Below the pieces are notes generated by a model that was not told the DNA's origin, made no database searches, and saw only the letters and a program-made list of their open reading frames with translations. Made by a program: the position numbers and the translations under genes. Of a DNA stretch of 11,653 nt, positions 1-11,653 are shown piece after piece; position 1 is the stretch's first letter, and every line of letters starts with the position of its first letter. The DNA comes from Firmicutes bacterium UBA1535. GTDB taxonomy: Bacteria > Bacillota > Clostridia > Tissierellales > Sedimentibacteraceae. The stretch lies in the NCBI GenBank assembly GCA_002323775.1, contig DCPV01000182.1:7311-18963 (forward strand), given 5' to 3'.

Positions 1-737
1 AGGGCGCCTTTACCGGTGCTACGCGTACCCGGGCAGGGCGTTTCGAACAAGCCGATGGCGGTACGCTTTTTCTTGACGAAATAACTGAAATGCCTTATAA
101 GATGCAAAGTAAACTGTTAAGAGTTTTACAAGATGGAATTATCAGTCGTTTAGGAAGCGATAAAACTATAGAAACTGATGTAAGAATAATAGCGGCGACC
201 AATATGGATATTAGAAGTGCTATTGATAAGGACAAATTCAGAAGTGATTTATTTTATAGATTGGCTGTTGTAAGTGTTGATTTACCACCTCTTAGAGAAC
301 GCAAGGAAGATATAAAGGAGCTTACAAAGTATTTTGTTAAGGGATTTTCTGAAAAAGAGAATATAAATATAAATAGCTTTGATGATGAAATCTATGGTAT
401 TTTTGAATCTTATTTTTGGGAAGGAAATATAAGAGAGCTTAGAAATGTAGTTCAAAGAATGGTTGTATTATCAAATGACGGAATTATTAAAAAAGAGGAT
501 ATACCAAGCTATATAGCTGATGGTATTGAGACTGTTCAAATAGAGAAATCTGAGGAAAATTTTATTGCCTGTGATTTTAATAATGCTATAAGAAATTTAG
601 AGACAAAAATGCTTACAGAAGCTATAAAAGTAGCTAAAGGAAATATATCTAATGCTGCAAAGCTTTTAAATTTGAATAGAACTACATTCTATTATAAAAT
701 TAAGTTATACAATTTAGAGCATCTGCTAAAAGAATGA
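1..737 (+). CDS. prdR: Sigma-54-dependent activator, 3' part (probable PrdR)
   Basis: Enhancer-binding protein that would use ATP hydrolysis to open sigma-54 promoters, here probably the proline-responsive activator of the adjacent prd operon. The reading frame is open from base 3. It shows the sigma-54 contact loop GAFTGA (bases 6-23), Walker B GGTLFLDE (57-80), sensor I (VRIIAATN), the arginine-finger region RSDLFYRL, the sensor II region [10 protein letters not shown], and a C-terminal Fis-type helix-turn-helix (about 606-725). The receiver or sensor domain and Walker A lie outside the window, so its signal cannot be seen. Identity as PrdR is inferred from position next to prdC and from a sigma-54 promoter in front of prdC. 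The first ~80 bases are about 60% GC with NtrC-like wording, whereas the rest is near 30% GC, so the left edge may not belong to this gene. Confidence 0.8.
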
Positions 738-738
738 T

Positions 739-773
739 TGTTCAAAAATTGACACAATGTTAAATTTTGAACA
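739..773. promoter_or_regulatory. Pair of 16-bp motifs, candidate activator sites (distal)
   Basis: Two copies of one motif lie immediately after the regulator's stop codon: TGTTCAAAAATTGACA at 739-754, and TGTTAAATTTTGAACA at 758-773, which is the reverse complement of TGTTCAAAATTTAACA. They start 19 bp apart, exactly as a second pair does at 10922-10956. Together the copies can also form a hairpin (738-747 with 765-774), but no T-run follows it on the plus strand, so a terminator is less convincing than a binding site. Inferred to be upstream activating sites for the sigma-54 activator. Confidence 0.55.
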
Positions 774-878
774 AAAAAATTTAAAAATATTAAATTTACA
801 AAAATCATGAAATTTCAACATATTTATTAAGATAAAAATTAAAAATATTACTTAAATTAAAAATATCTTTAAATCTCC

Positions 879-910
879 AAAAACACTGTTTAAAATCTGA
901 CAGTGTTTTT
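879..910 (+). terminator. Hairpin with T-tail, carrying a third activator-motif copy
   Basis: An 11-bp perfect stem (879-889 with 900-910) closes a 10-nt loop and ends in a run of five T. It could terminate transcription from the upstream regulator gene. The loop and inner stem are the motif TGTTTAAAATCTGACA (887-902). The hairpin core at 884-905 matches 20 of 22 bases of the hairpin at 10980-11001. That similarity between two unrelated gene ends argues that it also, or mainly, serves as a protein-binding site 142 bp ahead of the sigma-54 promoter. Confidence 0.6.
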
Positions 911-1028
911 ATTGTTGAGAAAATCAATAATTTCTTAATATATATATTTGTTAAATAAAAAACGATTTCCAACTTACTTAAATACGTTTTTAATATAAAA
1001 AAAATTATTAACAATGTTTTGTTGAAAA

Positions 1029-1044
1029 TGGCACGAAATTTGCT
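1029..1044 (+). promoter_or_regulatory. Sigma-54 (-24/-12) promoter of the prd operon
   Basis: The sequence TGGCACGAAATTTGCT matches the sigma-54 consensus TGGCAC-N5-TTGCW completely, with GG at 1030-1031 and GC at 1042-1043. Transcription would begin near 1055, leaving a leader of about 35 nt before prdC. This agrees with established knowledge that prd operons depend on SigL (sigma-54) and PrdR. Confidence 0.9.
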
Positions 1045-1089
1045 ATTGATAAATATATAACAATATCTAGCGATTAGGAGTGACAAAAT

Positions 1090-2379
1090 ATGAATTTTGT
1101 ATACAAATTTCCTTTGAAAATGCACGTAGGAGTGGCTTGTAAACCCATAGTAAATATAGGTGATACAGTAAAAAGGGGACAGTGCATAGCAGTGCCGGAG
1201 GGCTTAGGTGCTAAAATACATTCAAGTGTATCAGGTCTCGTAAAAGAGATTAGTGATACCTGCATTTTAATCCAAGCTGATGAGGTGCAAAATGATGAAT
1301 ATGTAAAGATAAAAGAGTGTAATTCAATAAAGGATGTATGTTTTGAAGCAGGAATTGTTGGAGCGGGAGGAGCAGGCTTTCCAACACACGTAAAGCTTGC
1401 AAATGATATCGCTGATGGATATATCATTGCAAACTGCGTAGAATGTGAGCCGGTGTTATCTCACAATATTTCTTTGATAGAACAAAATCCAGATATAGTT
1501 TTAAAGGGCGTAAAATACGCTATGGAAGCAGTTAAGGCAAAAAATGGAATTATAGCAATCAAGGAAAAAAATAAAAAAGCAATAGCTTCTTTAGAAAAAA
1601 TTATAACAAATTATCAAAGCATAACAATTAAAAAGCTTCCTGACATTTATCCTATGGGAGAAGAAAGAGCAATTATACATGAGATATTTGACAAGTGGCT
1701 TGAACCAACACAGCTTCCAATCGAAGCAAATTGCGTAGTACTAAATACAGAGACATTGGCTAATATAGTGAAAGCAATAGAAGATAGAAAGCCTGTAATT
1801 GACAAGGATATAACTGTTGGAGGAAAACTTGCCAATGGTAGTAAAGAAAATGTGTTTTTACAAGTTCCAATAGGAACACCGATAAAAGAAATGATAGAAA
1901 AATGCGGTGGAATTGATGGAGAATATGGAGAGGTACTGATAGGAGGTCCTTATACAGGCTTGGCAGGAAACTTAGAAAGCGATGTAGTAACAAAAACCTC
2001 TGGTGGTATCATAGTTACTATTGCCTTCCCTAAATATGAGGATAAAGTCGGCTTATTGGTTTGTGCCTGCGGTGCAAATGAAAGTAGATTAAGAGATATC
2101 GCTAATAAAATGGGCTCTGAGGTAGTAGAAGTGTTGCCATGTAAAAACATTGAAAATATCAAAGGAGCAAATAAATGTAAAACTCCGGGAACTTGTCCGG
2201 GACAGGCCGCTTTAGCTTTGCAATTTAAGAAAGCCGGTGCTAAAAGACTTATAATATCAAACTGTAGCGATTGTTCAAATACAGTTATGAATTCGGCGCC
2301 AAAGCTGGGCTTGGGAGTATATCATCATACAGACCATGTATTTAGAACAGTTGATCATGAATTAACAAGAAGATTATAG
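1090..2379 (+). CDS. prdC: PrdC, RnfC-like electron carrier of proline reductase
   Basis: Soluble RnfC-like protein believed to pass electrons from NADH, possibly via the Rnf complex, to proline reductase. The 429-residue product has an RnfC-type N-terminal barrel (about 10-50), the glycine-rich nucleotide/flavin segment GIVGAGGAGFPTHVKL (88-103), CVEC (116-119), a SLBB-like region around 240-285, and a cysteine-rich tail: C325, C327, C351, C363, C369, C392 and C395. The regular CxxCxxCxxxCP ferredoxin repeats of RnfC are absent. As far as I recall, PrdC contains selenocysteine in some clostridia. Here the frame has no internal UGA, so this is a cysteine form. AGGAG sits 8-12 nt before the ATG. 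First gene behind the sigma-54 promoter, with prdA 19 bp downstream. Confidence 0.92.
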   Translation: MNFVYKFPLKMHVGVACKPIVNIGDTVKRGQCIAVPEGLGAKIHSSVSGLVKEISDTCILIQADEVQNDEYVKIKECNSIKDVCFEAGIVGAGGAGFPTHVKLANDIADGYIIANCVECEPVLSHNISLIEQNPDIVLKGVKYAMEAVKAKNGIIAIKEKNKKAIASLEKIITNYQSITIKKLPDIYPMGEERAIIHEIFDKWLEPTQLPIEANCVVLNTETLANIVKAIEDRKPVIDKDITVGGKLANGSKENVFLQVPIGTPIKEMIEKCGGIDGEYGEVLIGGPYTGLAGNLESDVVTKTSGGIIVTIAFPKYEDKVGLLVCACGANESRLRDIANKMGSEVVEVLPCKNIENIKGANKCKTPGTCPGQAALALQFKKAGAKRLIISNCSDCSNTVMNSAPKLGLGVYHHTDHVFRTVDHELTRRL

Positions 2380-2398
2380 ATTTAAGGGAGAAAACAAA

Positions 2399-4549
2399 AT
2401 GTCATTAAACGCTGAACACATTGAAGAAATTAAAACAGAGCTTGCCATAGTTTGTTGCAGAACTGATGCAGGAACTGTTATATCAGCAGCTAACCTGGAA
2501 GATCCAGCAATATTTGATGAATTAAAAGATTCTGGACTTTTAAAAATACCTGATGATTGTCTTACAATTGAGGAGGTATTAGGAGCTAAGCTTATAAAAA
2601 CTATTGATTCGCTGACACCTATGACACCTGATATGTTTGAAAGCATAAATAAGGTGAAATCAAAGAATGAAAGCGAAGTTGACTTTGCCAGTATTGATGA
2701 AAATGCAAAAGCTGTTTTAAAGCTTAATAAAAAAGCCGGAGCTTTAATTCAAGTATCAGATTTAGAAAACCCAATGCACTTTGATAAATTAGTAGATTCA
2801 AATTTAATTACCTTAAATGATGAAGTATTAACTGTTAAAGAAGTAGTTGGCAAAAAATTAGCAAAGGATGTTGTAGCTTTGACTCCAGTATTGGGAGAAA
2901 TGCTAGAGGGATTTGCAGTAAAAAAAGTTGTTTCTAATTGCAATTCCATAGAAAATCCTATGATGAAAAAAGCATCAGGCAACAATGCAGGAGTTATGAG
3001 AATAAAAATTGAAGAAGGTAAGGGAATTGATATTCAAATACCATTAAGTATAATTGCTCAAGGTGGGTTTGATAATGAAGAAGCTGTGTGTGCAGAAACT
3101 GTAAATACAGTTATAGAAAATAACGTAAATAACACTAAAGGATTTAACACGGTAAATGCAGCAGAAGTTCAACAAGCGCCAAGGGCAGTTAGAAGCTTGA
3201 TTAAAAAGCATCACAAAATAACTGAAGTAAAATTTGGTGAAGAAACAAAAATAGAAGGCTCTTGCTTATATATAAGAGAGAACATATGTGAAGATGCTAT
3301 AAAAGGAAGCGAATTAGTAAAGGATATTAAATTAGAAATAATTACTCCTAATGATTACAATAAGTACAGCGAAACCATAATGGACGTTCAGCCGATAGCG
3401 ACAAAGGAAAAAGAATGTAAGCTTGGAAGTGGAGCTACAAGAATACTTGACGGTGTTATAGTTATGGTTACAGGAACAGACGAGGACGGAGTGCAAATAG
3501 GAGAGTTTGGCTCATCAGAGGGCATACTTGAAGAAAATATCATGTGGGGCAGACCGGGAGCGCCTGATAAGGGAGATATCTTTATAAAGACTCAAGTAAC
3601 AATAGCAAGAGGAACAAATATGGAAAGACCCGGACCATATGCTGCTCATAAAGTATCTGATGCTATTACTCAAGAGATAAGAAATGTGATGAAAGAGGCT
3701 GATGACAGTCTATTTGAAACTACAGAGGAATTGGTCCAGTACAGAAGACCTGGCAAGAAAAAAATAGTTATAGTAAAAGAAATAATGGGTCAAGGTGCTA
3801 TGCACGACAATCTGATATTGCCTGTAGAGCCGGTTGGAGTTTTAGGTGGAAAGCCAAATGTTGACTTAGGAAACGTACCTGTCATGCTTTCTCCGCTTGA
3901 GGTATTAGATGGAGGAATTCATGCTCTTACATGTATAGGGCCTGCTTCTAAGGAGTGTTCAAGACACTATTTTAGAGAGCCACTAGTAATTGAAGCTATG
4001 AATGATGAGGATGTAGACTTATGCGGAGTAATATTTATAGGAAGCCCTCAAATAAACTTAGAAAAATTCTATGTATCAGAAAGATTAGGAATGACAATTG
4101 AAGCATTAGATGTTGACGGTGCTATTGTAACTACTGAAGGCTTTGGAAACAATCATATAGACTTCGCAAGTCATATTGAGCAAATTGGACAAAGAGGTGT
4201 AGAGGTTGTCGGAATGTCATTCTGCGGAGTTCAAGGAGCATTGGTTGTTGGAAACAAATACATGAAGCACATGGTAGACAACAACAAGTCTGAGGAAGGC
4301 ATAGAAAATGAAGTTCTATCTTGCAATACATTATGCAAGGAAGATGCTCTAAGAGCCTTAGCGATGGTTAAATCGGCTATTGACAAGGAAGAAATAAAAG
4401 CTCCGGAGAAAAAGTGGAATCCAAATGTTAAGCAATCTAACATTGAAATTGTAGAGAAAGATAAGAATATATCAATAGAGCAAGTTCTAAACGAAACTTC
4501 TATTCCATTAAGTGAAAAAAGGAAAAGCAAGATGGGTGGAAATCAATAA
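2399..4549 (+). CDS. prdA: PrdA, D-proline reductase pyruvoyl proprotein
   Basis: Proprotein of D-proline reductase, which cleaves D-proline reductively to 5-aminovalerate. In the family the chain cuts itself before a cysteine, which becomes the pyruvoyl group that binds proline. The matching site here is HALT|CIGPASKE with Cys512, giving fragments of 511 and 205 residues. The conserved core starts near residue 267 and includes GTDEDGVQIGEFGSSEG, MGQGAMHDNLILPVEP, DLGNVPVMLSPLEVLDGG and TTEGFGNNHIDFASHIEQIG. The N-terminal module IVCCRTDAG...LTPMTPDM (16-81) is followed by a diverged second copy (105-170), so at 716 residues the protein is about 80-90 longer than PrdA proteins I know. RBS AAGGGAG lies just before the ATG. 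The partner selenoprotein PrdB follows two genes on. Confidence 0.95.
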   Translation: MSLNAEHIEEIKTELAIVCCRTDAGTVISAANLEDPAIFDELKDSGLLKIPDDCLTIEEVLGAKLIKTIDSLTPMTPDMFESINKVKSKNESEVDFASIDENAKAVLKLNKKAGALIQVSDLENPMHFDKLVDSNLITLNDEVLTVKEVVGKKLAKDVVALTPVLGEMLEGFAVKKVVSNCNSIENPMMKKASGNNAGVMRIKIEEGKGIDIQIPLSIIAQGGFDNEEAVCAETVNTVIENNVNNTKGFNTVNAAEVQQAPRAVRSLIKKHHKITEVKFGEETKIEGSCLYIRENICEDAIKGSELVKDIKLEIITPNDYNKYSETIMDVQPIATKEKECKLGSGATRILDGVIVMVTGTDEDGVQIGEFGSSEGILEENIMWGRPGAPDKGDIFIKTQVTIARGTNMERPGPYAAHKVSDAITQEIRNVMKEADDSLFETTEELVQYRRPGKKKIVIVKEIMGQGAMHDNLILPVEPVGVLGGKPNVDLGNVPVMLSPLEVLDGGIHALTCIGPASKECSRHYFREPLVIEAMNDEDVDLCGVIFIGSPQINLEKFYVSERLGMTIEALDVDGAIVTTEGFGNNHIDFASHIEQIGQRGVEVVGMSFCGVQGALVVGNKYMKHMVDNNKSEEGIENEVLSCNTLCKEDALRALAMVKSAIDKEEIKAPEKKWNPNVKQSNIEIVEKDKNISIEQVLNETSIPLSEKRKSKMGGNQ
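2444..2908 (+). repeat. Tandem duplication of the PrdA N-terminal module
   Basis: Residues 16-81 (bases 2444-2641) and 105-170 (bases 2711-2908) align without gaps over 66 positions with 27 identities by hand count. Shared anchors are AG..I, LE.P..FD.L.DS.L, LT..EV.G.KL.K and LTP....M.E. The two copies are joined by a charged linker (82-104). The Cys19-Cys20 pair of the first copy is replaced by Lys-Leu in the second, so the copies have probably diverged in role. Confidence 0.75.
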
Positions 4550-4620
4550 TACTAGATAATAGCATGAATTCTATTTGATAAAAAATCAGAAAGATTTCTT
4601 ATAAGATTATAGAGGCAAAA

Positions 4621-4869
4621 ATGAAATATTGTGATAATTTAATTGAAATGAAAGGTATTATTACCGAGGTTCATGATGGAGCAGTATCAATTGACTTTAA
4701 AGGGAGACTTGGAAGTATGAAAATACCAATGAGAATGTTGATAACTGATTATGAGCTTAAAGAAGGCATGGAAGTAGGAATGAAGATGAGCTTTGTTGAA
4801 GTGCTTTCGGACAAAATAGATGATAAATACACAAGAAACAAGCAAGCAAAATCAGAAAGGTGTGAATAA
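4621..4869 (+). CDS. Small conserved protein between prdA and prdB
   Basis: An 82-residue protein with no signal peptide or membrane segment. Alternating hydrophobic residues and conserved-looking glycines (GIITEVHDGAVSIDFKGRLG, then a segment around LKEGMEVGMKMSFVEV) suggest a small beta-barrel, OB- or SH3-like. The last 15 residues are charged and probably disordered. Other clostridial prd operons carry a small gene of this kind at the same place, and I recall the family being named after the Clostridium botulinum proteins CBO2463/CBO2479, but its function is unknown. RBS-like AGAGG precedes the ATG. Its stop codon lies one base before the likely prdB TTG start, so the two are probably translationally coupled. 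A role in assembly or maturation of the PrdA/PrdB complex is only a guess from position. Confidence 0.75.
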   Translation: MKYCDNLIEMKGIITEVHDGAVSIDFKGRLGSMKIPMRMLITDYELKEGMEVGMKMSFVEVLSDKIDDKYTRNKQAKSERCE

Positions 4870-4870
4870 G

Positions 4871-5581
4871 TTGAGAGGATTACAGTCAGAAATATTTGTT
4901 CCTATAACTCCGCCGCTGGTGTGGACACCAGTTACAAAAGAGTTAAAGGATATGAAAATTGCTTTTGCTACAGCAGCAGGAGTACATTTAAAAAACGATA
5001 AAAGATTTAATCTTGCCGGAGACTTTTCTTATAGATTAATACCGGGAAAGGCTAATGCGCAGGATTTGATGGTATCTCACGGTGGATATGATAATGGCGA
5101 TGTTAATAAAGATGTCAACTGTATGTTCCCTGTTGACAGGCTAAAGGAATTAAAGGAAGATGGCTTCATTGGAGATGTAGCACCAACGCATATAGGCTTT
5201 ATGGGTGGTGGCGGTAACCAAGAAAAATTTAAAAACGAAACCGGACCGGCTATTGCCCAAATATTAAAAGAAGAAGGTGTCGATGCTGTAGTGTTGACAG
5301 CTGGCTGAGGTACTTGTCATCGTTCTGCTGTACTTGTACAAAGAGCGATTGAGGAATCGGGGATTCCTACAATAGTTATAGCGGCATTACCGCCGGTAGT
5401 TAGACAAACCGGAACTCCAAGAGCAGTAGCTCCACTTGTGCCAATGGGTGCAAATGCGGGAGAGCCTAACAATAAAGAGATGCAAACTGAAATATTAAAG
5501 GCTACACTAAAACAATTAGTTGAAATACAAACACCTGGTAAGATAGTAACATTACCATTTGAATATATAGCTAAAGTATGA
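4871..5581 (+). CDS. prdB: PrdB, selenocysteine subunit of D-proline reductase
   Basis: Selenoprotein subunit that attacks the C-N bond of pyruvoyl-bound D-proline. The frame is interrupted by UGA at 5306-5308 in VVLTAG-U-GTCHRSAVLVQRA and continues with strong PrdB wording (AALPPVVRQTGTPRAVAPLVPMGANAGEPNN) to TGA at 5579-5581. Read through, the product has 236 residues with Sec146, close to the usual ~240. The motif U-x-x-C is a redox pair. Earlier family motifs are present: GLQSEIFVPITPP, NLAGDFSYR, SHGGYDN, GFMGGGG. I place the start at TTG 4871, giving MRGLQSEIF, because AAAGGTG ends 8 nt before it. GTG 4862 is possible but sits directly on the Shine-Dalgarno. ATG 4820 would overlap the upstream gene by 50 bases and adds residues that do not look like PrdB. 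It overlaps prdD by ATGA. Confidence 0.93.
5306..5308 (+). other. In-frame UGA read as selenocysteine in prdB
   Basis: TGA follows GCTGGC and precedes GGTACTTGTCATCGT, encoding AG-U-GTCHR, the known active-site context of PrdB. Family knowledge and the uninterrupted downstream homology show it is recoded. A bacterial SECIS should lie just 3' of it. A short stem (5308-5313 with 5330-5335, loop 16 nt) can be drawn, but I do not find it convincing. Confidence 0.9.
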
Positions 5582-6336
5582 TAAAAGAAATCAGTAAATT
5601 AGTTATAAAAGCATTTAATATTGAAAATGTATATCTATCTAATAAGACAAAAATTGAAGAATGTTGCTTATATATTAATGAAAATTTAGTAGAGGAAGCA
5701 TTAAATCTTAATAAGGATTATATTAAAAGCTTAGATATTAAAGTAATTAATAAGAAAGATAGAAATGTTTTTGTTAATTCAATAATGGATTTTATTCCTA
5801 TTGCAACTAAGGTTCTGGGTAAAATAGGTGAGGGAGTAACACATACTTTAACTGGTGTATGTGTTATGCTCACTGGAATTGATGAAAATGGTGTTCAAGT
5901 TGCAGAATTTGGATCATCAGAAGGATTTTTAAATGAGCAGGTTATTTTTAATCATCCGGGTACACCCAGTGATGATGATATAATTATTCATGTAAATGTT
6001 GTTTTATTTAATGGAATGGGTACAGTGAGAAAGGCAATTATTGCTTCTCACAGTGCTTGTGATTATATAGTTCAGAATATACGAGAATATGTTAAAAAAT
6101 TAACCGGTAAAAACTGTGATGAAAAACATGAGTTTATACATAGCATAGACAATACTAAGAAAAATATTGCAATAATAAAACAAGTGGCAGGACAAGGAGC
6201 TATGTATGATACTTTTGTGTTGCCTGATGAGCCTTGCGGTGTCAGTGGTGCATACTCAATTATTGACTTGGGCAACGCTCCGGTACTGCTTACTCCAAAT
6301 GAATATAGAGATGGGGCAATTAGAGCAATGTATTAA
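5578..6336 (+). CDS. prdD: PrdD, paralogue of the central part of PrdA
   Basis: A 252-residue protein that parallels PrdA from about residue 267 up to, but not including, the self-cleavage cysteine. Shared blocks include TKIEECCLYINENL, SIMDFIPIATKV, GVCVMLTGIDENGVQVAEFGSSEGF, IIKQVAGQGAMYDTFVLPDEPCG and DLGNAPVLLTP. It ends in RDGAIRAMY where PrdA has LDGGIHALT followed by Cys512. It therefore lacks the pyruvoyl precursor residue and is unlikely to be catalytic alone. A structural or assembly role together with PrdE is plausible but not demonstrated by the sequence. The start ATG overlaps the prdB stop (ATGA) and has no strong ribosome site of its own, so it probably depends on reinitiation after prdB. 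Confidence 0.9.
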   Translation: MIKEISKLVIKAFNIENVYLSNKTKIEECCLYINENLVEEALNLNKDYIKSLDIKVINKKDRNVFVNSIMDFIPIATKVLGKIGEGVTHTLTGVCVMLTGIDENGVQVAEFGSSEGFLNEQVIFNHPGTPSDDDIIIHVNVVLFNGMGTVRKAIIASHSACDYIVQNIREYVKKLTGKNCDEKHEFIHSIDNTKKNIAIIKQVAGQGAMYDTFVLPDEPCGVSGAYSIIDLGNAPVLLTPNEYRDGAIRAMY

Positions 6337-6337
6337 A

Positions 6338-6389
6338 AGCGAAGAAAAAAGAATCTTCGCTCTATGAAAGAAGCAAAAGGACGCTTCTT
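6338..6389 (+). other. Two tandem stem-loops between prdD and prdE
   Basis: The first has an 8-bp stem, AGCGAAGA (6338-6345) with TCTTCGCT (6354-6361), and an A-rich 8-nt loop. The second has a 7-bp stem, AAGAAGC (6368-6374) with GCTTCTT (6383-6389), and an 8-nt loop. Neither is followed by a T-run, so they are not simple terminators. They fill most of the only sizeable gap between prdB and prdF and could be an mRNA processing or stabilising element. Confidence 0.5.
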
Positions 6390-6425
6390 CAACGTATTTT
6401 ATAATATGTTTTAATGGAGATAAAT

Positions 6426-6899
6426 ATGGGAATAGGACCATCTACCAAGGAAACTACACTGCATCATTTTAGAGATCCTCTGCTTGATGTAGTCAGTAAC
6501 GATAATGATGTAAATTTATTGGGAGTTGTAATTGTCGGTACACCTCAATCTAATAAAGATAAATATTTTGTGGGTAAAAGGGTCGCTATGTGTATTCAGG
6601 CTATGAATATAGATGGTGCAATAATTTCCGTTGACGGTTTTGGCAATAGTCACGTTGATTTTGCCAATACAATACAAGAAGTTGCCAGTAGAAATATACC
6701 GGTTGTAGGTATGAGCTTTGTTGGTACACAAGGTAAGTTTGTTACTACAAATGAATATATGGATACTATTGTTGATTTGAATAAATCTGAGGATGGAATT
6801 GAAACATTGAGAGTTGGCGAAAATTCCTCAGTTATCTTAGATGCAAAAAAGGCTATTTCGTTGTTAAAGCTTAAAATTAGGAGGAATGACAAGAAATGA
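6426..6899 (+). CDS. prdE: PrdE, paralogue of the C-terminal part of PrdA
   Basis: A 157-residue protein matching the PrdA fragment that follows the self-cleavage site. MGIGPSTKETTLHHFRDPL corresponds to CIGPASKECSRHYFREPLV in PrdA, and later blocks SVDGFGNSHVDFANTI, GMSFVGTQGKFVTTNEYMDTIVD and NKSEDGIE also match. Where PrdA has the pyruvoyl-forming cysteine, PrdE has its start region, so no pyruvoyl group can form. I choose ATG 6426 because GGAG at 6416-6419 sits six bases upstream and because the PrdA match starts there. An in-frame ATG at 6414 would place that ribosome site inside the gene. Together PrdD and PrdE look like a split, cofactor-less copy of PrdA. The end overlaps prdF (ATGA). 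Confidence 0.9.
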   Translation: MGIGPSTKETTLHHFRDPLLDVVSNDNDVNLLGVVIVGTPQSNKDKYFVGKRVAMCIQAMNIDGAIISVDGFGNSHVDFANTIQEVASRNIPVVGMSFVGTQGKFVTTNEYMDTIVDLNKSEDGIETLRVGENSSVILDAKKAISLLKLKIRRNDKK

Positions 6900-7909
6900 A
6901 AATTAAAAAATCAATGCATGCAATAGATTCACATACAATGGGTGAACCAACAAGAATTATAACGAGTGGTATACCTAAAATACCTGGAAAAACTATAGCA
7001 GACAAGAAAGAATATTTGGAAAGTAATTTAGATTATATTAGAACTGCAGTTATGAATGAACCAAGAGGTCATAATGATATGTTTGGTTCTATACTTATGG
7101 AGCCGGTATCAGAGGAGGCAGATTTTGGTATTGTGTTTATGGATGGCGGAGGATATCTGAACATGTGCGGACATGGATCGATAGGAGCTGCTTCAGCAAT
7201 TGTAGAAACAGGAATGGTAGATGTTGTTGAACCTATAACCAAGGTAGTTTTAGAATCTCCCGCGGGACTAATAAAAGCAGATGTGAGAGTAGAAAATGAT
7301 ATAGTTAAAGATGCTACAATTACAAACGTTCCATCATTTTTATACAAAAGAGATTTAAAAATTAATGTTCCGACAGTAGGCGAAGTTACTTTAGACATTG
7401 CCTTTGGAGGAAGCTTCTTCGCTATAGTTGACATAACTCAAGGATGCTTAAACGTAGATATCTGTGTAGAAAATGCACATGAAATAAAAGAATTGGGTAT
7501 TAAAATTAGAAATGAAGTAAATAAGAGTATAACTGTTTCTCACCCATATTTGACATATATCAAAACAGTTGATTTAGTTGAATTCTATGGACCTGCTAAA
7601 AATCCTAAGGCAACTATGCAAAATGTTGTAATATTCGGCTCAGGACAGGTAGACAGATCACCTTGTGGAACAGGCACGAGTGCAAAGCTTGCCACACTTA
7701 TTGCAAAAGGAAAATTAAAGCTGAACGAAGAATTTGTGTATGAAAGTATAACGGGAACAATGTTTACAGGAAAGGCAATAGAAAAGGTCAAAATCGGAGA
7801 ATACGACGGTATTATTCCACAAATTACTGGGAGAGCTTATGTTACTGGATTTAATCATTTTATCATAAATGATGAAGACCCTCTAAAATATGGCTTTAAA
7901 TTAGCGTAG
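6896..7909 (+). CDS. prdF: PrdF, proline racemase
   Basis: Cofactor-independent racemase that interconverts L- and D-proline, supplying the D-isomer to proline reductase. The 337-residue protein carries both catalytic thiols of the family: Cys91 in NMCGHGSIG and Cys257 in DRSPCGTGTSAK. The N-terminal DSHTMGEPTR and the C-terminal ITGRAYVTGFNHF are also typical, and length and wording agree with clostridial PrdF. Hydroxyproline 2-epimerases share the same motifs, so activity on hydroxyproline cannot be excluded. The prd setting favours proline. AGGAGG at 6879-6884 lies 11 nt before the ATG, and the start overlaps the prdE stop. Confidence 0.94.
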   Translation: MKIKKSMHAIDSHTMGEPTRIITSGIPKIPGKTIADKKEYLESNLDYIRTAVMNEPRGHNDMFGSILMEPVSEEADFGIVFMDGGGYLNMCGHGSIGAASAIVETGMVDVVEPITKVVLESPAGLIKADVRVENDIVKDATITNVPSFLYKRDLKINVPTVGEVTLDIAFGGSFFAIVDITQGCLNVDICVENAHEIKELGIKIRNEVNKSITVSHPYLTYIKTVDLVEFYGPAKNPKATMQNVVIFGSGQVDRSPCGTGTSAKLATLIAKGKLKLNEEFVYESITGTMFTGKAIEKVKIGEYDGIIPQITGRAYVTGFNHFIINDEDPLKYGFKLA

Positions 7910-7962
7910 AGATAAAAAATTATTTTTAAGATACTTTTTTGTGATACAGGGAGGATAAAAGA

Positions 7963-9210
7963 ATGAAAAAGATAGCATTTATTAATGGTAATTTGATAGA
8001 TGGTACAGGCAAGGATATGATTAAGAATTCGCTTGTACTAGTTGAAGATAAAAAGATAGTATATGCAGGAATAAAAAAAGATTTTAGTCAAGATTATGAA
8101 TGTATTGATATATCAAATAAAACAATTATGCCGGGACTTATAGACACTCATTTGCATTTTAGTGGAAATTTAACTGACAATGACAGTGATTGGGTACTAG
8201 AGAATGTTGTTCAAAAAACGGTAGTAGCAGTACAACAAGCTAGAGAATGTTTAGAAAACGGATTAACAACAGTCGGAGAAATATCTCGTTCAGGTATAGC
8301 AATAAGAGATATGGTTGAGGCAGGTGTAATGCAAGGGCCAAGAGTTATAGCAACAGGACTTGGATTTTGCAGAACATGCGGACATGGAGACAGCCATAAG
8401 CTGCCTTATAGCTATAACCACGATTCACACCCTTGGGCTGAAAGAGTTGACGGACCTTGGGATTTAAGAAAAGCAATTAGACATAGACTTCGTGAAAATC
8501 CAGATGCCATCAAGATTTGGTCAACAGGCGGCGGAATTTGGAGATGGGATCAGAAGTTAGACCAGCACTATACATTTGAAGAAATAAAAGCAGTTGTTGA
8601 TGAGTGCAACATGGTTGGAATTCCTGTTTGGTCACACGCAGAGGGATATTCAGGTGCATTGGACAGCTGTAAGGCTGGAGTTCATCTAATCATACACGGT
8701 CAAACACTAAATGATGAGTGCCTAGATATAATGGCGGAAAAAGGAATTTATTTCTGCCCGACAATACAGTTTTTAAACGAATGGTTTAAAACATATGCAC
8801 CACCTTATATACCTGAAGTTCATGATAAATTCCCAGGCGAAACAGTTGCTGAAAAGGAATTGAACAGAGTTTATTCTAATTTAAGAAGGGCAAAGGAAAA
8901 AGGAATAGTTTTAACAATAGGCTCTGACTCATTCTGCTCAAGCTTAACTCCATATGGAACAACAGCTATTGGTGAAATGTACGCATTCAATGAAAAAGCA
9001 GGCATAGGCAATATGGATGTCATAGTAGCAGCAACTAAATCCGGAGCAGAAATGCTAAAAGTTTTAGATAAAACAGGCACATTAGAAGAAGGAAAATTTG
9101 CAGACTTATTAGTTATAGAAGGCAATCCACTTGAAAACATAAGAGCTATCTGTGTTGAAAACATGAAGCTAATAATGAAAGAGGGAGCTTTAGTAAAAAA
9201 TAGTTTGTAA
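7963..9210 (+). CDS. Amidohydrolase-family metal hydrolase, possible Xaa-Pro dipeptidase
   Basis: A 415-residue amidohydrolase of the imidazolonepropionase/prolidase-like group. A beta-sandwich N-terminus (FINGNLIDGTG) leads into the barrel. Predicted metal ligands of a two-metal site are all present: His63 and His65 in DTHLHF, Lys184 in AIKIWSTGGG (bridging carboxylated lysine), His225 in WSHAEG, His245 in IIHG and Asp322 in IGSDSF. The C-terminal GTLEEGKFADLLVIEGNPLEN is the usual family end. No signal peptide is seen, so it is cytoplasmic. Members of this group hydrolyse Xaa-Pro or Xaa-hydroxyproline dipeptides, and its place at the end of a proline reductase operon makes that substrate attractive, but this is inference. 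GGGAGGA precedes the ATG. It follows prdF by 53 bp without a convincing terminator and ends before a strong one. Confidence 0.85.
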   Translation: MKKIAFINGNLIDGTGKDMIKNSLVLVEDKKIVYAGIKKDFSQDYECIDISNKTIMPGLIDTHLHFSGNLTDNDSDWVLENVVQKTVVAVQQARECLENGLTTVGEISRSGIAIRDMVEAGVMQGPRVIATGLGFCRTCGHGDSHKLPYSYNHDSHPWAERVDGPWDLRKAIRHRLRENPDAIKIWSTGGGIWRWDQKLDQHYTFEEIKAVVDECNMVGIPVWSHAEGYSGALDSCKAGVHLIIHGQTLNDECLDIMAEKGIYFCPTIQFLNEWFKTYAPPYIPEVHDKFPGETVAEKELNRVYSNLRRAKEKGIVLTIGSDSFCSSLTPYGTTAIGEMYAFNEKAGIGNMDVIVAATKSGAEMLKVLDKTGTLEEGKFADLLVIEGNPLENIRAICVENMKLIMKEGALVKNSL

Positions 9211-9246
9211 AATAATATAAAATGATATAAAATTAATAAAATCATG

Positions 9247-9288
9247 AGCAGAGGCAGAATAGTCATAATACATCTTCCTCTGCTTTTT
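9247..9288 (+). terminator. Rho-independent terminator closing the prd block
   Basis: An 8-bp GC-containing stem, AGCAGAGG (9247-9254) with CCTCTGCT (9277-9284), a 22-nt loop and a run of T (9284-9288). It sits 36 bp after the amidohydrolase stop and is the first clear terminator after prdC. Confidence 0.8.
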
Positions 9289-9298
9289 AATTAAACGC

Positions 9299-9351
9299 AT
9301 AGTTTTTTTATATAAGTTAAAAATAATACTGTACTTAAATAAAAAAACTAT
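9299..9351. repeat. Perfect 12-bp inverted repeat in front of selO
   Basis: ATAGTTTTTTTA (9299-9310) and TAAAAAAACTAT (9340-9351) are exact reverse complements separated by 29 bp. The right arm stops directly beside the AAAGGAG ribosome site of the next gene. It may be an operator or a leader stem influencing translation. Being nearly all A/T it would be a weak RNA hairpin. Confidence 0.45.
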
Positions 9352-9365
9352 AAAGGAGAACATAA

Positions 9366-10907
9366 TTGATAAATAAAGATACAAATACAGGATGGAATTT
9401 GGATAATAGCTATGCACAACTTCCTCAGATATTTTTTACAAGCCTTAATCCTACGCCAGTTAGTTCACCAAAGCTAGTCGTTATTAACAATAAGTTAGCT
9501 ATATCATTAGGCTTAAATATTGAATATTTAAAAAGTGAGCAGGCTAGAGATATTTTTGCTGGAAATAAAGTGCCTGAGGGCTCTTTCCCTATTGCACAGG
9601 CTTATGCAGGACATCAGTTCGGATATTTTACAATTCTGGGTGATGGCAGAGCAATACTCTTGGGTGAACAGATAACACCTAATGGTGAGCGTTTTGATAT
9701 ACAGCTTAAAGGCTCCGGTGAGACACCCTATTCTCGTAGAGGTGATGGTAGGGCTGCACTTGGTCCGATGCTTAGAGAATATATTATAAGTGAAGCTATG
9801 TACGCACTTGGAATTCCTACTACTCGAAGCTTGGCTGTTGTAACAACTGGAGAACCAGTGTATAGGGAAAGAGTGGAGCGTGGTGCTGTTCTTACAAGAG
9901 TTGCTTCAAGCCATTTGCGTGTAGGTACATTTGGATTTGCTTCAAGTCAAGGTAATTTTGAAGAATTGAAAGCTTTGGCTGATTATACTTTGCAGAGACA
10001 TTATAATGGATTTGAGGAAAGTGAAAATAAATATCTTTTCTTGCTTAAGGAACTTATCAAGCGTCAAGCCAAGCTTATTTCAAAATGGCAGCTCGTAGGA
10101 TTTATACATGGTGTGATGAACACGGACAATATGGCTATTAGCGGTGAAACTATAGATTATGGTCCTTGCGCTTTCATGGATAATTATAGCCCTAAAACTG
10201 TTTTTAGCTCAATAGATGAGCATGGTCGCTATGCGTATGGCAATCAGCCTGTTATTGGTGCTTGGAATTTAGCACGTTTTTCGGAGGCACTGTTGCCTTT
10301 ATTGCATGACGATAGAGAAAAGGCTATAGAGCTGGCACAAGATGCGATTTCTGGCTATAATGATTTGTATAATGATAATTATATGCTTGGAATGAGAGCT
10401 AAATTAGGAATATTTAACGAAGAATCAAAGGATAAAAATTTAATTGAAGAACTGCTTAGCATTATGGAAAAATATAGTGCTGATTATACAAATACTTTTT
10501 ATGAGCTAAGTCAAGGTAATGACTTAAGCAATGGCAATGAATTAAAAAACAATAATTGTTTAAATCAAAATGACAATTTAAACACAGATAACACACAAAG
10601 CATTGATTTATATAAAAGTGATGAATTTTTAAAATGGCATAAGGATTGGCAATCAAGATTGGAAAGACAAGAGGAAAGCAAGGTTATGTCAATAAAACTT
10701 ATGCAGCAATCAAACCCTGCTATAATTCCAAGAAATCATAGAGTAGAGGAAGCCTTGGAAGCAGCTGTAAATAATGATGATTACAGCCTAATGAATAGTT
10801 TATTAGAGGCTTTATCAAAGCCATACAACTATGAAAATGTGAATTCAGAATATTCAAAATTGCCGCCAAGCTCCAAAATTCCATACAGAACATTTTGCGG
10901 AACATAA
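9366..10907 (+). CDS. selO: SelO-type pseudokinase, protein AMPylase
   Basis: SelO (YdiU/UPF0061) proteins have a kinase-like fold with flipped nucleotide and transfer AMP to Ser/Thr/Tyr of target proteins, with roles in redox stress. The 513-residue product has the family blocks [18 protein letters not shown] (79-96), [20 protein letters not shown] (111-130, with Lys115), HGVMNTDNM (249-256) and the metal-binding DYGPC (264-268). The C-terminus ends YRTFCGT with cysteine where some homologues carry selenocysteine, so this is a Cys form. Start is TTG 9366 with AAAGGAG 8-14 nt upstream. No in-frame ATG gives the full N-terminus. An Asn-rich stretch (about residues 381-415) interrupts the C-terminal third. 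It has its own leader after a terminator, so it is probably not part of the prd transcript. Confidence 0.92.
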
Positions 10908-10921
10908 GGAGAAAAAATAAC

Positions 10922-10956
10922 TGTTTAAAATCTAACATGATGTTTAAAATTAAACA
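10922..10956. promoter_or_regulatory. Pair of 16-bp motifs, candidate activator sites (second copy of the array)
   Basis: TGTTTAAAATCTAACA (10922-10937) and TGTTTAAAATTAAACA (10941-10956) are direct repeats starting 19 bp apart. They match the motif before prdC, and the spacing equals that of the 739-773 pair. They start 14 bp after the selO stop and are inferred to be sites for the same sigma-54 activator. Confidence 0.6.
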
Positions 10957-10975
10957 CAAAGAATTAAGCTTTTTC

Positions 10976-11006
10976 AAAGCACTGTTCAAAATTTGACAGT
11001 GCTTTT
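10976..11006 (+). terminator. Hairpin with T-tail after selO, carrying an activator-motif copy
   Basis: A 10-bp perfect stem (10976-10985 with 10996-11005) closes a 10-nt loop and ends in four T, able to terminate selO transcription. Its centre is TGTTCAAAATTTGACA (10983-10998). The core at 10980-11001 is the near-twin of that at 884-905, differing at only two loop bases. It lies 145 bp before the next sigma-54 promoter. Confidence 0.65.
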
Positions 11007-11127
11007 ATAATTTGCAAGATAAATAGCTTTACATTTCAAATGTTTATTTATTCACAAAGTATATGTTTGTCTTTGTTTGCAAGCAGTTGCGAGGATAACG
11101 ATTTATTTAGCTATAATTCGCTAATAA

Positions 11128-11143
11128 TGGCATAAAATTTGCA
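11128..11143 (+). promoter_or_regulatory. Sigma-54 (-24/-12) promoter of the second operon
   Basis: TGGCATAAAATTTGCA fits TGGCAY-N5-TTGCW, with GG at 11129-11130 and GC at 11141-11142, the required 10-bp spacing. Only the last base of the -24 element deviates from TGGCAC. Transcription would start near 11154, leaving a leader of about 80 nt before the [2Fe-2S] gene. Confidence 0.85.
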
Positions 11144-11232: not shown

Positions 11233-11541
11233 ATGAGAATTGAGAAGCATCCAATTTTAGAATTTGACAGAAATGAAAAAATCGTTTTCACCTTTAATGG
11301 AGAAAAACTAGAGGGATACAAAGGTGAGTCCATACAAGCTGCTTTGCATGCCGCTGGTGTTAAGGTTTTGGGAAGAAGCATTGAGCTTCATAGACCAAGA
11401 GGATTTTATTGTGCTATAGGCAACTGCTCATCCTGCCAAATGGTAGTAAATGGAGTTCCAAATGTTAAGACTTGCGTCACAGAATTGGAAGAAGGAATGA
11501 TAGTTGAAACACAAGAGGGCAAAGGAGTTGTATCATGGTAG
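11233..11541 (+). CDS. Small [2Fe-2S] subunit of an amino-acid dehydrogenase-type complex
   Basis: A 102-residue ferredoxin-like subunit. The cluster motif is C60-x4-C65-x2-C68-x12-C81 within RPRGFYCAIGNCSSCQMVVNG, the pattern of the small subunit (or N-terminal domain) of HcnA, sarcosine oxidase alpha and D-hydroxyproline/opine/proline dehydrogenase complexes. It would pass electrons between flavin subunits in the cytoplasm. AGGAG lies 7 nt before the ATG. The 3' end overlaps the next gene by 7 bases, a sign of tight co-expression. The substrate cannot be read from this subunit. The shared regulatory array with prdC suggests proline, hydroxyproline or another Stickland amino acid. Confidence 0.85.
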   Translation: MRIEKHPILEFDRNEKIVFTFNGEKLEGYKGESIQAALHAAGVKVLGRSIELHRPRGFYCAIGNCSSCQMVVNGVPNVKTCVTELEEGMIVETQEGKGVVSW

Positions 11542-11653
11542 AAAAAGAATTGGTAATAGTAGGCGGAGGACCTGCTGGATTATGTGCAGCTATCAGCGCA
11601 GCACAAAGTGGTGCTAATGTACTTATAATAGAAAGAAGCAACAAGCTTGGAGG
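11535..11653 (+). CDS. FAD/NAD(P)-binding oxidoreductase, 5' part
   Basis: The window ends 39 codons into this gene. MVEKELVIVGGGPAGLCAAI shows the Rossmann dinucleotide motif GxGxxG (GGGPAG) near the N-terminus, and the second strand ends in VLIIERSNKLGG with the acidic residue that binds the ribose of FAD. This matches the larger flavin subunit that accompanies small [2Fe-2S] proteins in HcnB/sarcosine oxidase-like complexes. The ATG lies inside the end of the upstream gene, so translation is probably coupled. Whether a third, DadA-like subunit follows cannot be seen. Confidence 0.85.
   Translation, partial: MVEKELVIVGGGPAGLCAAISAAQSGANVLIIERSNKLG

Follow-up and report, generated by a model that had tools for sequence, protein, structure and literature searches.

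Why do two separate gaps in one clostridial genome carry the same arrangement of regulatory sites, and why does one site of each set lie within a hairpin? Both gaps belong to an 11,653-nucleotide stretch of Firmicutes bacterium UBA1535 (Tissierellales, Sedimentibacteraceae; assembly GCA_002323775.1, contig DCPV01000182.1, positions 7,311 to 18,963), hereafter referred to as the window. One gap separates the activator gene prdR from prdC, the first gene of the prd operon; the other precedes a gene for a [2Fe-2S] protein. A model reading the sequence had proposed that six motif copies in these gaps are upstream activating sites (UASs) of the adjacent activator and define a regulon of two operons (the original prediction). 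We consider it probable, at roughly 0.72, that the six copies are UASs of PrdR that drive prdC with the prd operon and, here, a dehydrogenase operon, the third site of each array being placed at the apex of the upstream gene's terminator.

Two arrays of sites and the recognition helix of PrdR

The motif TGTTYAAAATYTRACA, at no more than one mismatch, occurs exactly six times in the window, everywhere that the original prediction had put it, against a mean of 0.02 and a maximum of 1 in 200 dinucleotide shuffles of the window. When up to three mismatches are allowed, 10 matches are found against 2.85 expected, a number reached in one of the 200 shuffles. Before prdC lie copy 1 (TGTTCAAAAATTGACA, 739–754, plus strand), directly after the prdR stop codon, copy 2 (TGTTCAAAATTTAACA, 758–773, minus strand) and copy 3 (TGTTTAAAATCTGACA, 887–902, plus strand); before the [2Fe-2S] gene lie copies 4 (TGTTTAAAATCTAACA, 10922–10937), 5 (TGTTTAAAATTAAACA, 10941–10956) and 6 (TGTTCAAAATTTGACA, 10983–10998), all on the plus strand. 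The original prediction had these positions right but left unstated that copy 2 is on the minus strand. As it had claimed, the first two copies start 19 bp apart in both gaps; the pair is inverted before prdC and direct in the second gap, and the window contains two of these 19-bp pairs where the shuffles contain none.

Each array is followed by a sigma-54 promoter, TGGCACGAAATTTGCT for prdC (1029–1044, plus strand) and TGGCATAAAATTTGCA for the second operon (11128–11143, plus strand), and these are the only two occurrences of TGGCAY-N5-TTGCW in the window (0.06 expected). The distances of the third copies to the promoters, 142 bp in the prdC gap and 145 bp in the second gap, likewise agree with the prediction. 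The second pair lies 187–206 bp before its promoter and the prdC pair 271–290 bp, slightly past the published range of 100–250 bp. The published traits of PrdR promoters found in the window are an adjacent prdR (first gap only), more than one TGT-N10-ACA UAS and a −24/−12 element. The hairpin regions of the two gaps share 30 of 39 positions, and the pairs share 25 of 35. An origin of the second gap as a recent copy of the whole first gap is not supported; the alignment of the two has a mean column identity of 70%, and outside the motifs, hairpin and promoter the likeness is, in our own judgement, made without a control, not clearly above that of AT-rich DNA.

Similar arrays are found between prdR and prdC in relatives, the conservation that the original prediction had looked to. 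In genome G031 (prdC 76% identical) and in Lutispora thermophila, prdC is preceded by the 19-bp pair and a third copy; G001 (prdC 72% identical) shows the pair with a weak candidate for the third copy, next to which part of the gap reads N. Two TGTY-N8-RACA sites 17–20 bp apart are present in eight other loci (L007, L010, L011, L013, L028, L030, L041 and L049); outside the window's clade the sites mostly read TGTC-N8-GACA. The composite 19-bp pair occurs in 2 of the 249 genomes of G001's order, once in each and both times directly upstream of prdC, with no occurrence of a reversed control. This pattern was composed after those genomes and the window had been viewed, so that the hits are not independent, whereas the absence elsewhere is. 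Single motif copies at up to two mismatches, compared with their reversed control, numbered 67 versus 85 in G001, 77 versus 65 in G005, 75 versus 97 in G031 and 53 versus 30 in G032. Thus, in the scan of related genomes that had been suggested as a check, single copies proved unspecific and the 19-bp pair specific to prdC.

To compare the sites with their activators, we used prdC loci obtained by scanning genome contigs with a PrdC alignment. At least 76 distinct loci were found, 75 of which were used (L029 was dropped, as its contig begins at prdC). In 49 of 77 loci, the window and 48 others including G031, less than 700 bp separate the end of the activator gene from prdC; the half-site counts and the shuffling of hairpin flanks below concern the 44 of these 49 gaps that have a matching site. 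The window's prdR (3–737, plus strand) is represented by its C-terminal part, with an AAA+ domain and a Fis-type helix-turn-helix whose helix reads LNRTTFYYK. It matches positions 343–577 of the 577 in NF041552 (TF_PrdR, E 6.7e-96), below the whole-protein cut-off, as the gene runs off the window's edge.

An Asn precedes the helix Arg in PrdR of the window, G031, G001 and L. thermophila, and a Lys or Pro in the other 45 of the 49. The ratio of T to C in the half-sites is 18:6 with Asn, 11:61 with Lys and 10:94 with Pro (21:155 for Lys and Pro together), counting every match of a loose site rule in the gap, weak ones included. Per locus, the T fraction is at least 0.67 in 4/4 Asn loci and at most 0.5 in 40/40 others; the chance of such a split is 7 in a million, computed with 45 loci where 44 are listed, a difference of little effect, and with kinship ignored. 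The Asn helix goes with TGTT half-sites and the Lys or Pro helix with TGTC. In a tree of 77 activators Asn requires two changes, one in the clade of the window, G031 and G001 and one in L. thermophila, and 0 of 200 bootstrap trees had a single change; Lutispora BIN23, the sister of L. thermophila, has Lys and C-type sites. The UAS role is supported because relatives share the array between prdR and prdC and because the site changes with the PrdR helix, in keeping with the adjacent activator that had been proposed; by the same sequence signature, PrdR is likely to read the second array as well.

The varying residue aligns with Asn84 of Fis, which, according to the accessible part of PMC4784862, is the neighbour of Arg85, the residue that contacts G, and itself reaches the base at position 4. 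As a lead, this analogy would support the position as DNA-facing, not the exact base register.

The third site within a terminator-like hairpin

The original prediction had named a motif in a hairpin in its title and offered no interpretation of it. Both third copies, which match the motif without a mismatch, indeed sit at the apex of stable hairpins predicted by folding on the plus strand. The first (879–910), a candidate prdR terminator, has a 12-bp stem (879–890/899–910) with an A-rich 5′ side and a T-rich 3′ side, a folding energy of −13.5 kcal/mol and a z-score of −4.5, and in our own scan it is the best terminator-like hairpin of the prdR–prdC gap. The second (10976–11005), a candidate selO terminator, has an 11-bp stem (10976–10986/10995–11005) with a T-rich 3′ side, −13.9 kcal/mol and a z-score of −4.9.

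This geometry recurs among the 49 activator–prdC gaps. In 19 of them a UAS forms the centre of the best terminator-like hairpin, and in 8 further gaps, L003 being a weak case, a UAS lies in a hairpin arm (in each arm in 5 of the 8). Since a palindromic site itself favours a hairpin, we tested only the flanks outside its 16 bases. With the window's second gap counted in, 21 of 103 sites had at least five flank pairs, compared with a mean of 2.8 and a maximum of 9 in 2000 permutations. When the sites were kept and the rest shuffled 20 times, the best hairpin was centred on a UAS in 4.8 gaps on average (maximum 8), compared with the observed 19 of 44; UAS-centred hairpins scoring at least 18 numbered 15, compared with 0.1 (maximum 1) after the same shuffling. 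These hairpin counts are not independent, as some loci (L002/L006, L034/L035) nearly duplicate each other.

The stems were also compared within three sets of close loci, covering 9 of the 21 extended sites. Relative to G031, three pairs have changed on both sides in the window's first hairpin and two in its second; between the window's own two hairpins one pair has changed, from A-T to G-C. Two to three such changes separate Tissierella loci, two separate L002 or L006 from L009, and none separates L002 from L006. The stems are thus paired but diverged.

The neighbourhood of the [2Fe-2S] gene in five relatives bears on whose hairpin this is. Its upstream neighbour is divergent in three (L149, L150 and L151) and co-directional in two; in L145 an apparent separate terminator follows the co-directional gene, and in L153 the upstream gene encodes a PrdR-like paralogue and the site lies in a hairpin. 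We read the hairpin as part of the upstream gene's end, for which an already existing palindrome may have been co-opted.

We also considered, and rejected, the idea that a UAS serves as terminator in all gaps following sigma-54 activator genes; among 11 other activator gaps only L185 was clear. In L185 (G007:C7), where a PrdR-like paralogue stands directly upstream of the [2Fe-2S] operon, TGTTCAGCAATGGACA forms the apex of a hairpin with a long T-run. In L178, L179 and L180 an activator of another group (helix HRTALYKK) is followed by repeated palindromes resembling TGTAGA-N6-TCTACA, one of which lies in a terminator-like hairpin before a sigma-54 element (two of these three hairpins were folded). 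L014 has by eye an ordinary terminator, with a loop too long for our script. In L043 and L057 the PrdR helix reads PRTTLHSK, and the gaps have no TGTY sites and carry terminator-like hairpins with arms resembling GACTAAT/ATTAGTC, perhaps another type of UAS. We found no report of an overlap of UAS and terminator in the open-licence literature; a paper outside that literature could exist.

The second operon, its activator and the alternatives

The window holds only the first gene of the second operon and the start of the next. The first (11233–11541, plus strand) encodes the [2Fe-2S] subunit, the first of a probable imino-acid or proline dehydrogenase complex, with an N-terminal match to TIGR01372 (SoxA) below the cut-off. 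The start of an FAD/NAD-binding subunit follows (11538–11653, plus strand, off the window's edge), identified from the sequence; the gene at the same place in L145 and L149 is SoxA-like. In these two loci the [2Fe-2S] gene is followed, in order, by genes for a SoxA-like FAD subunit, a small protein whose cysteines resemble those of ferredoxins, and a SoxB-like FAD subunit; the small protein matches no family and was assessed on these cysteines. The SoxB-like subunit of a relative has 1y56_B as its best match (E 9e-84; library name, sarcosine oxidase), and we take 1Y56 to be the L-proline dehydrogenase complex of Pyrococcus horikoshii. The genes that follow the operon in L149 presumably encode an Xaa-Pro peptidase and dipeptidases. 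A structure paper on the P. horikoshii complex is cited in the accessible part of PMC8704557. These sequence matches point to an imino-acid (proline) dehydrogenase as the probable product of the second operon; a different imino or N-methyl amino acid could also be its substrate, with sarcosine oxidation as the alternative. A search of the open-licence literature for a proline dehydrogenase alongside proline reductase turned up only a racemase paper.

The [2Fe-2S] gene or a relative (at 1e-20) is present in 24 of the 27 genomes of G001's family, and prdC (at 1e-100) in 5 of the 27. We kept 22 of 30 [2Fe-2S] loci, dropping those with less than 70% identity or no match. Under a loose rule, 20 of the 22 have a sigma-54-like element within 360 bp. 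Their half-sites number 72 with C and 6 with T, whereas the window's second array has 5 with T and 1 with C. A clade of PrdR-like paralogues (about 480 residues; 491–569 bits with the PrdR model) has a member in 18 of the 27 family genomes, with Pro in the helix in 18/18 rows, and this different, PrdR-like activator probably reads the orthologous [2Fe-2S] operon in relatives. As the relatives combine C-type sites with a Pro paralogue and the window's array is T-type, we infer that PrdR probably took over the second operon in the window's lineage, which is the least certain step of our reading.

The rival view is that a separate PrdR-like paralogue reads the second array also in the window's organism, the two arrays being alike through similar activator specificity. 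We think this unlikely, with evidence on either side. Of the 18 genomes with a paralogue, 16 have no prdC match at 1e-100; in G007 the paralogue gene stands directly upstream of the [2Fe-2S] operon; G001 has both an Asn PrdR and a Pro paralogue; and two sites 19 bp apart also occur in 13 of the 22 relatives' [2Fe-2S] loci. In G001 the prdC pair is T-type, and the [2Fe-2S] pair has three half-sites with C and one with T, with a further T-T match 81 bp upstream. Against the paralogue stand its invariant Pro and C-type arrays, whereas five of six half-sites in the window's second array are T-type, like those of its own prdC array. Moreover, the window's operon adjoins the prd cluster, and in G031, whose PrdR carries Asn, the operon (at 1e-20) and any paralogue-class match are both absent. 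It is scarcely credible that the copies are chance occurrences or repeats unrelated to PrdR: the sequence is AT-rich, and relative to the reversed control single copies are fewer in G001 and G031 and more numerous in G005 and G032, but six copies were found where 0.02 were expected, the 19-bp pair stands only before prdC among the 249 genomes, and the half-site varies with the helix.

Two further alternatives concern the hairpin. It may be no terminator, the extended palindrome being instead a longer, stronger PrdR site or a cruciform. Both window hairpins share CACTGT...ACAGTG, so that the flanks could be part of the recognition, and a strict terminator scan omits the first hairpin; but the flanks differ among clades and yet stay paired, and extended sites are followed by a T-richer tail (mean best-of-7 T count 5.6 versus 3.0, the place of counting being not quite equal). 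Flanks of at least five pairs are also rare before relatives' [2Fe-2S] genes (2 of 39 UAS-like sites at the 22 loci, versus 20 of 100 in prdC gaps; p 0.037), and on balance we find this account improbable. Still less probable is the converse, that the hairpin site is a terminator only, with an incidental likeness to a UAS, and that PrdR binds just the pair. A strong hairpin does lie away from the sites in L011, L013, L053, L056 and L076; on the other hand, the best hairpin is UAS-centred in 19 of the 44 gaps with sites, and both apex copies of the window are free of mismatches.

A number of observations weigh against the reading that we prefer. A stricter terminator scan of the whole window gave 5 sites, compared with 5.1 in shuffles, and listed the second hairpin and not the first, which we ascribe to the first hairpin's T-run being taken up by its stem; the candidate terminator function therefore rests on comparative data. 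Of the 49 gaps, 22 have neither hairpin geometry, L044 among them lacking any hairpin. In L. thermophila the third copy has only three flank pairs and the best hairpin lies elsewhere, every comparison involving the window's second hairpin contains one broken pair, and the flank-pair contrast between prdC gaps and relatives' [2Fe-2S] sites is modest. As for the sites, a perfect single copy in G031 (C1:49569; L148:6569) lies off prdC in a 13-kb stretch with no forward sigma-54 element, and TGT-N10-12-ACA is common to fifteen clostridial activator groups, according to the accessible part of PMC6615313. The variable base of the half-sites is shifted by one step from the Fis register, the Fis Asn contacting a base one step further in, so that the structural reading from Fis is only a lead. 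The second array may be read by an Asn-helix paralogue in the window's species, and the SoxA-like subunit matches sarcosine oxidase alpha (8.6e-25) better than 1y56_A (2.6e-18, third). Four of the 22 gaps mentioned above (L043, L054, L057 and L058) show related palindromes by eye, which our motif rule or choice of the best hairpin missed and which were not counted.

In the mechanism that we favour, PrdR bound to the pair and the third copy would loop to the sigma-54 polymerase and activate prdC, the prd operon and, in this lineage, the proline or imino-acid dehydrogenase operon. The third site would lie at the apex of the upstream gene's intrinsic terminator, that of prdR in the first gap and probably that of selO in the second, so that one palindrome would serve as a protein site in DNA and as a hairpin in RNA, and transcription of the upstream gene would stop at the hairpin, short of the promoter. 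A bolder version, possible but doubtful in our view, is that sigma-54 enhancer-binding proteins have converged repeatedly on a design in which an activator's own UAS is placed in the apex or arms of its gene's intrinsic terminator. Occupancy would then tighten the activator gene's own termination and shield the downstream promoter from read-through, and the design would have been carried with the array to the oxidative proline operon, giving one switch for reduction and oxidation.

Known regulators and neighbouring genes

The PrdR motif class, the targets prdC and prdABDEF, and sigma-54 binding to the C. difficile prdC and prdA promoters are described in the accessible part of Nie et al. 2019 (PMC6615313), and both promoters are listed in that of Soutourina et al. 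2020 (PMC7438776). Proline acts through PrdR to induce prdC and the prdA operon in C. difficile (PMC7438776 and PMC12285225, accessible parts). The arrays described here share with the published PrdR/sigma-54 regulon of Clostridiales the activator, the TGT-N10-12-ACA UAS, the sigma-54 promoters and the prdC target, as well as multiple UASs, most of them 100–250 bp before promoters, and activator genes that usually adjoin their targets (PMC6615313). They differ in having a dehydrogenase operon as a probable target, the published targets in Table 1 being prdABDEF and prdC. Neither PMC6615313 nor PMC7438776, in the parts accessible to us, mentions an overlap with a terminator or a dehydrogenase operon, and the words terminator, hairpin and stem-loop are absent from the accessible main text of the former. 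The NifA- and FhlA-type UASs (TGT-N10-ACA) have the same palindromic core with other activators and genes (PMC6615313). The PrdR motif class and the prdC target are thus known, and the UAS at a candidate terminator apex, the TGTT variant with an Asn helix and the probable dehydrogenase target are new.

Escherichia coli AtoC (accessible part of PMC3118216; NC_000913.3) offers a similar layout of activator gene, inverted site pair and target operon with TGGCAC...TTGCT, and its site between atoC and atoD resembles the geometry of those PrdR gaps that have UASs in hairpin arms. It differs in that no T-run follows the palindrome in the fetched sequence, and 'terminator' is absent from the accessible main text of PMC3118216. 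In E. coli K-12 (L187:4253–4305) the palindrome begins some twelve bases past the atoC stop codon. The archaeal dye-linked L-proline dehydrogenase (PMC8704557, accessible part) resembles the second operon's product in that the SoxB-like subunit matches 1y56_B best and the SoxA-like subunit matches 1y56_A third. Here, unlike in the archaeal complexes, the [2Fe-2S] and small Fe-S-type subunits are separate, and heterotetrameric sarcosine oxidase is a near rival.

All other genes of the window are likewise on the plus strand. prdC (1090–2379) matches TIGR04481 above its cut-off, and the stretch 2399–7909 holds prdA, a small open reading frame, prdB, prdD, a prdE-like gene and a proline racemase gene (prdF-like), with matches to TIGR04480 and TIGR04482 above their cut-offs and one to PRK13969 just below; prdB was identified by reading the sequence. 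It contains an in-frame TGA (5306–5308) followed by GGTACTTGTCAT, presumably where D-proline reductase is expected to carry its selenocysteine. prdD and the prdE-like gene (5578–6899) match successive parts of the PrdA profile (166–412 and 415–564), an arrangement that resembles a split copy of prdA. An amidohydrolase gene (7963–9210), nearest to the Xaa-Pro dipeptidase family but below the cut-off, is followed at 9247–9288 by a hairpin, seen by eye, with eight G-C-richer pairs, a loop of 22 and a T-run; its loop falls outside the range of the strict terminator scan, and it is a plausible end of the prd operon. A selO/ydiU-family gene (9366–10907; PRK00029, above its cut-off) lies upstream of the second gap. 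The window had no Rfam match at gathering scores, and a search of viral contigs with PrdA found no relative.

PrdR controls proline fermentation, a preferred energy route of anaerobes such as C. difficile. An overlap of enhancer and terminator would provide a simple, testable link between binding of the activator and termination of its own gene, and it suggests a rule for finding the UASs of orphan enhancer-binding proteins, namely to inspect the terminator. The co-variation of one residue with one base, at two places in the tree, proposes a specificity determinant for the Fis-type helices of these activators. Finally, the second operon suggests how proline oxidation and proline reduction could come under one regulator.

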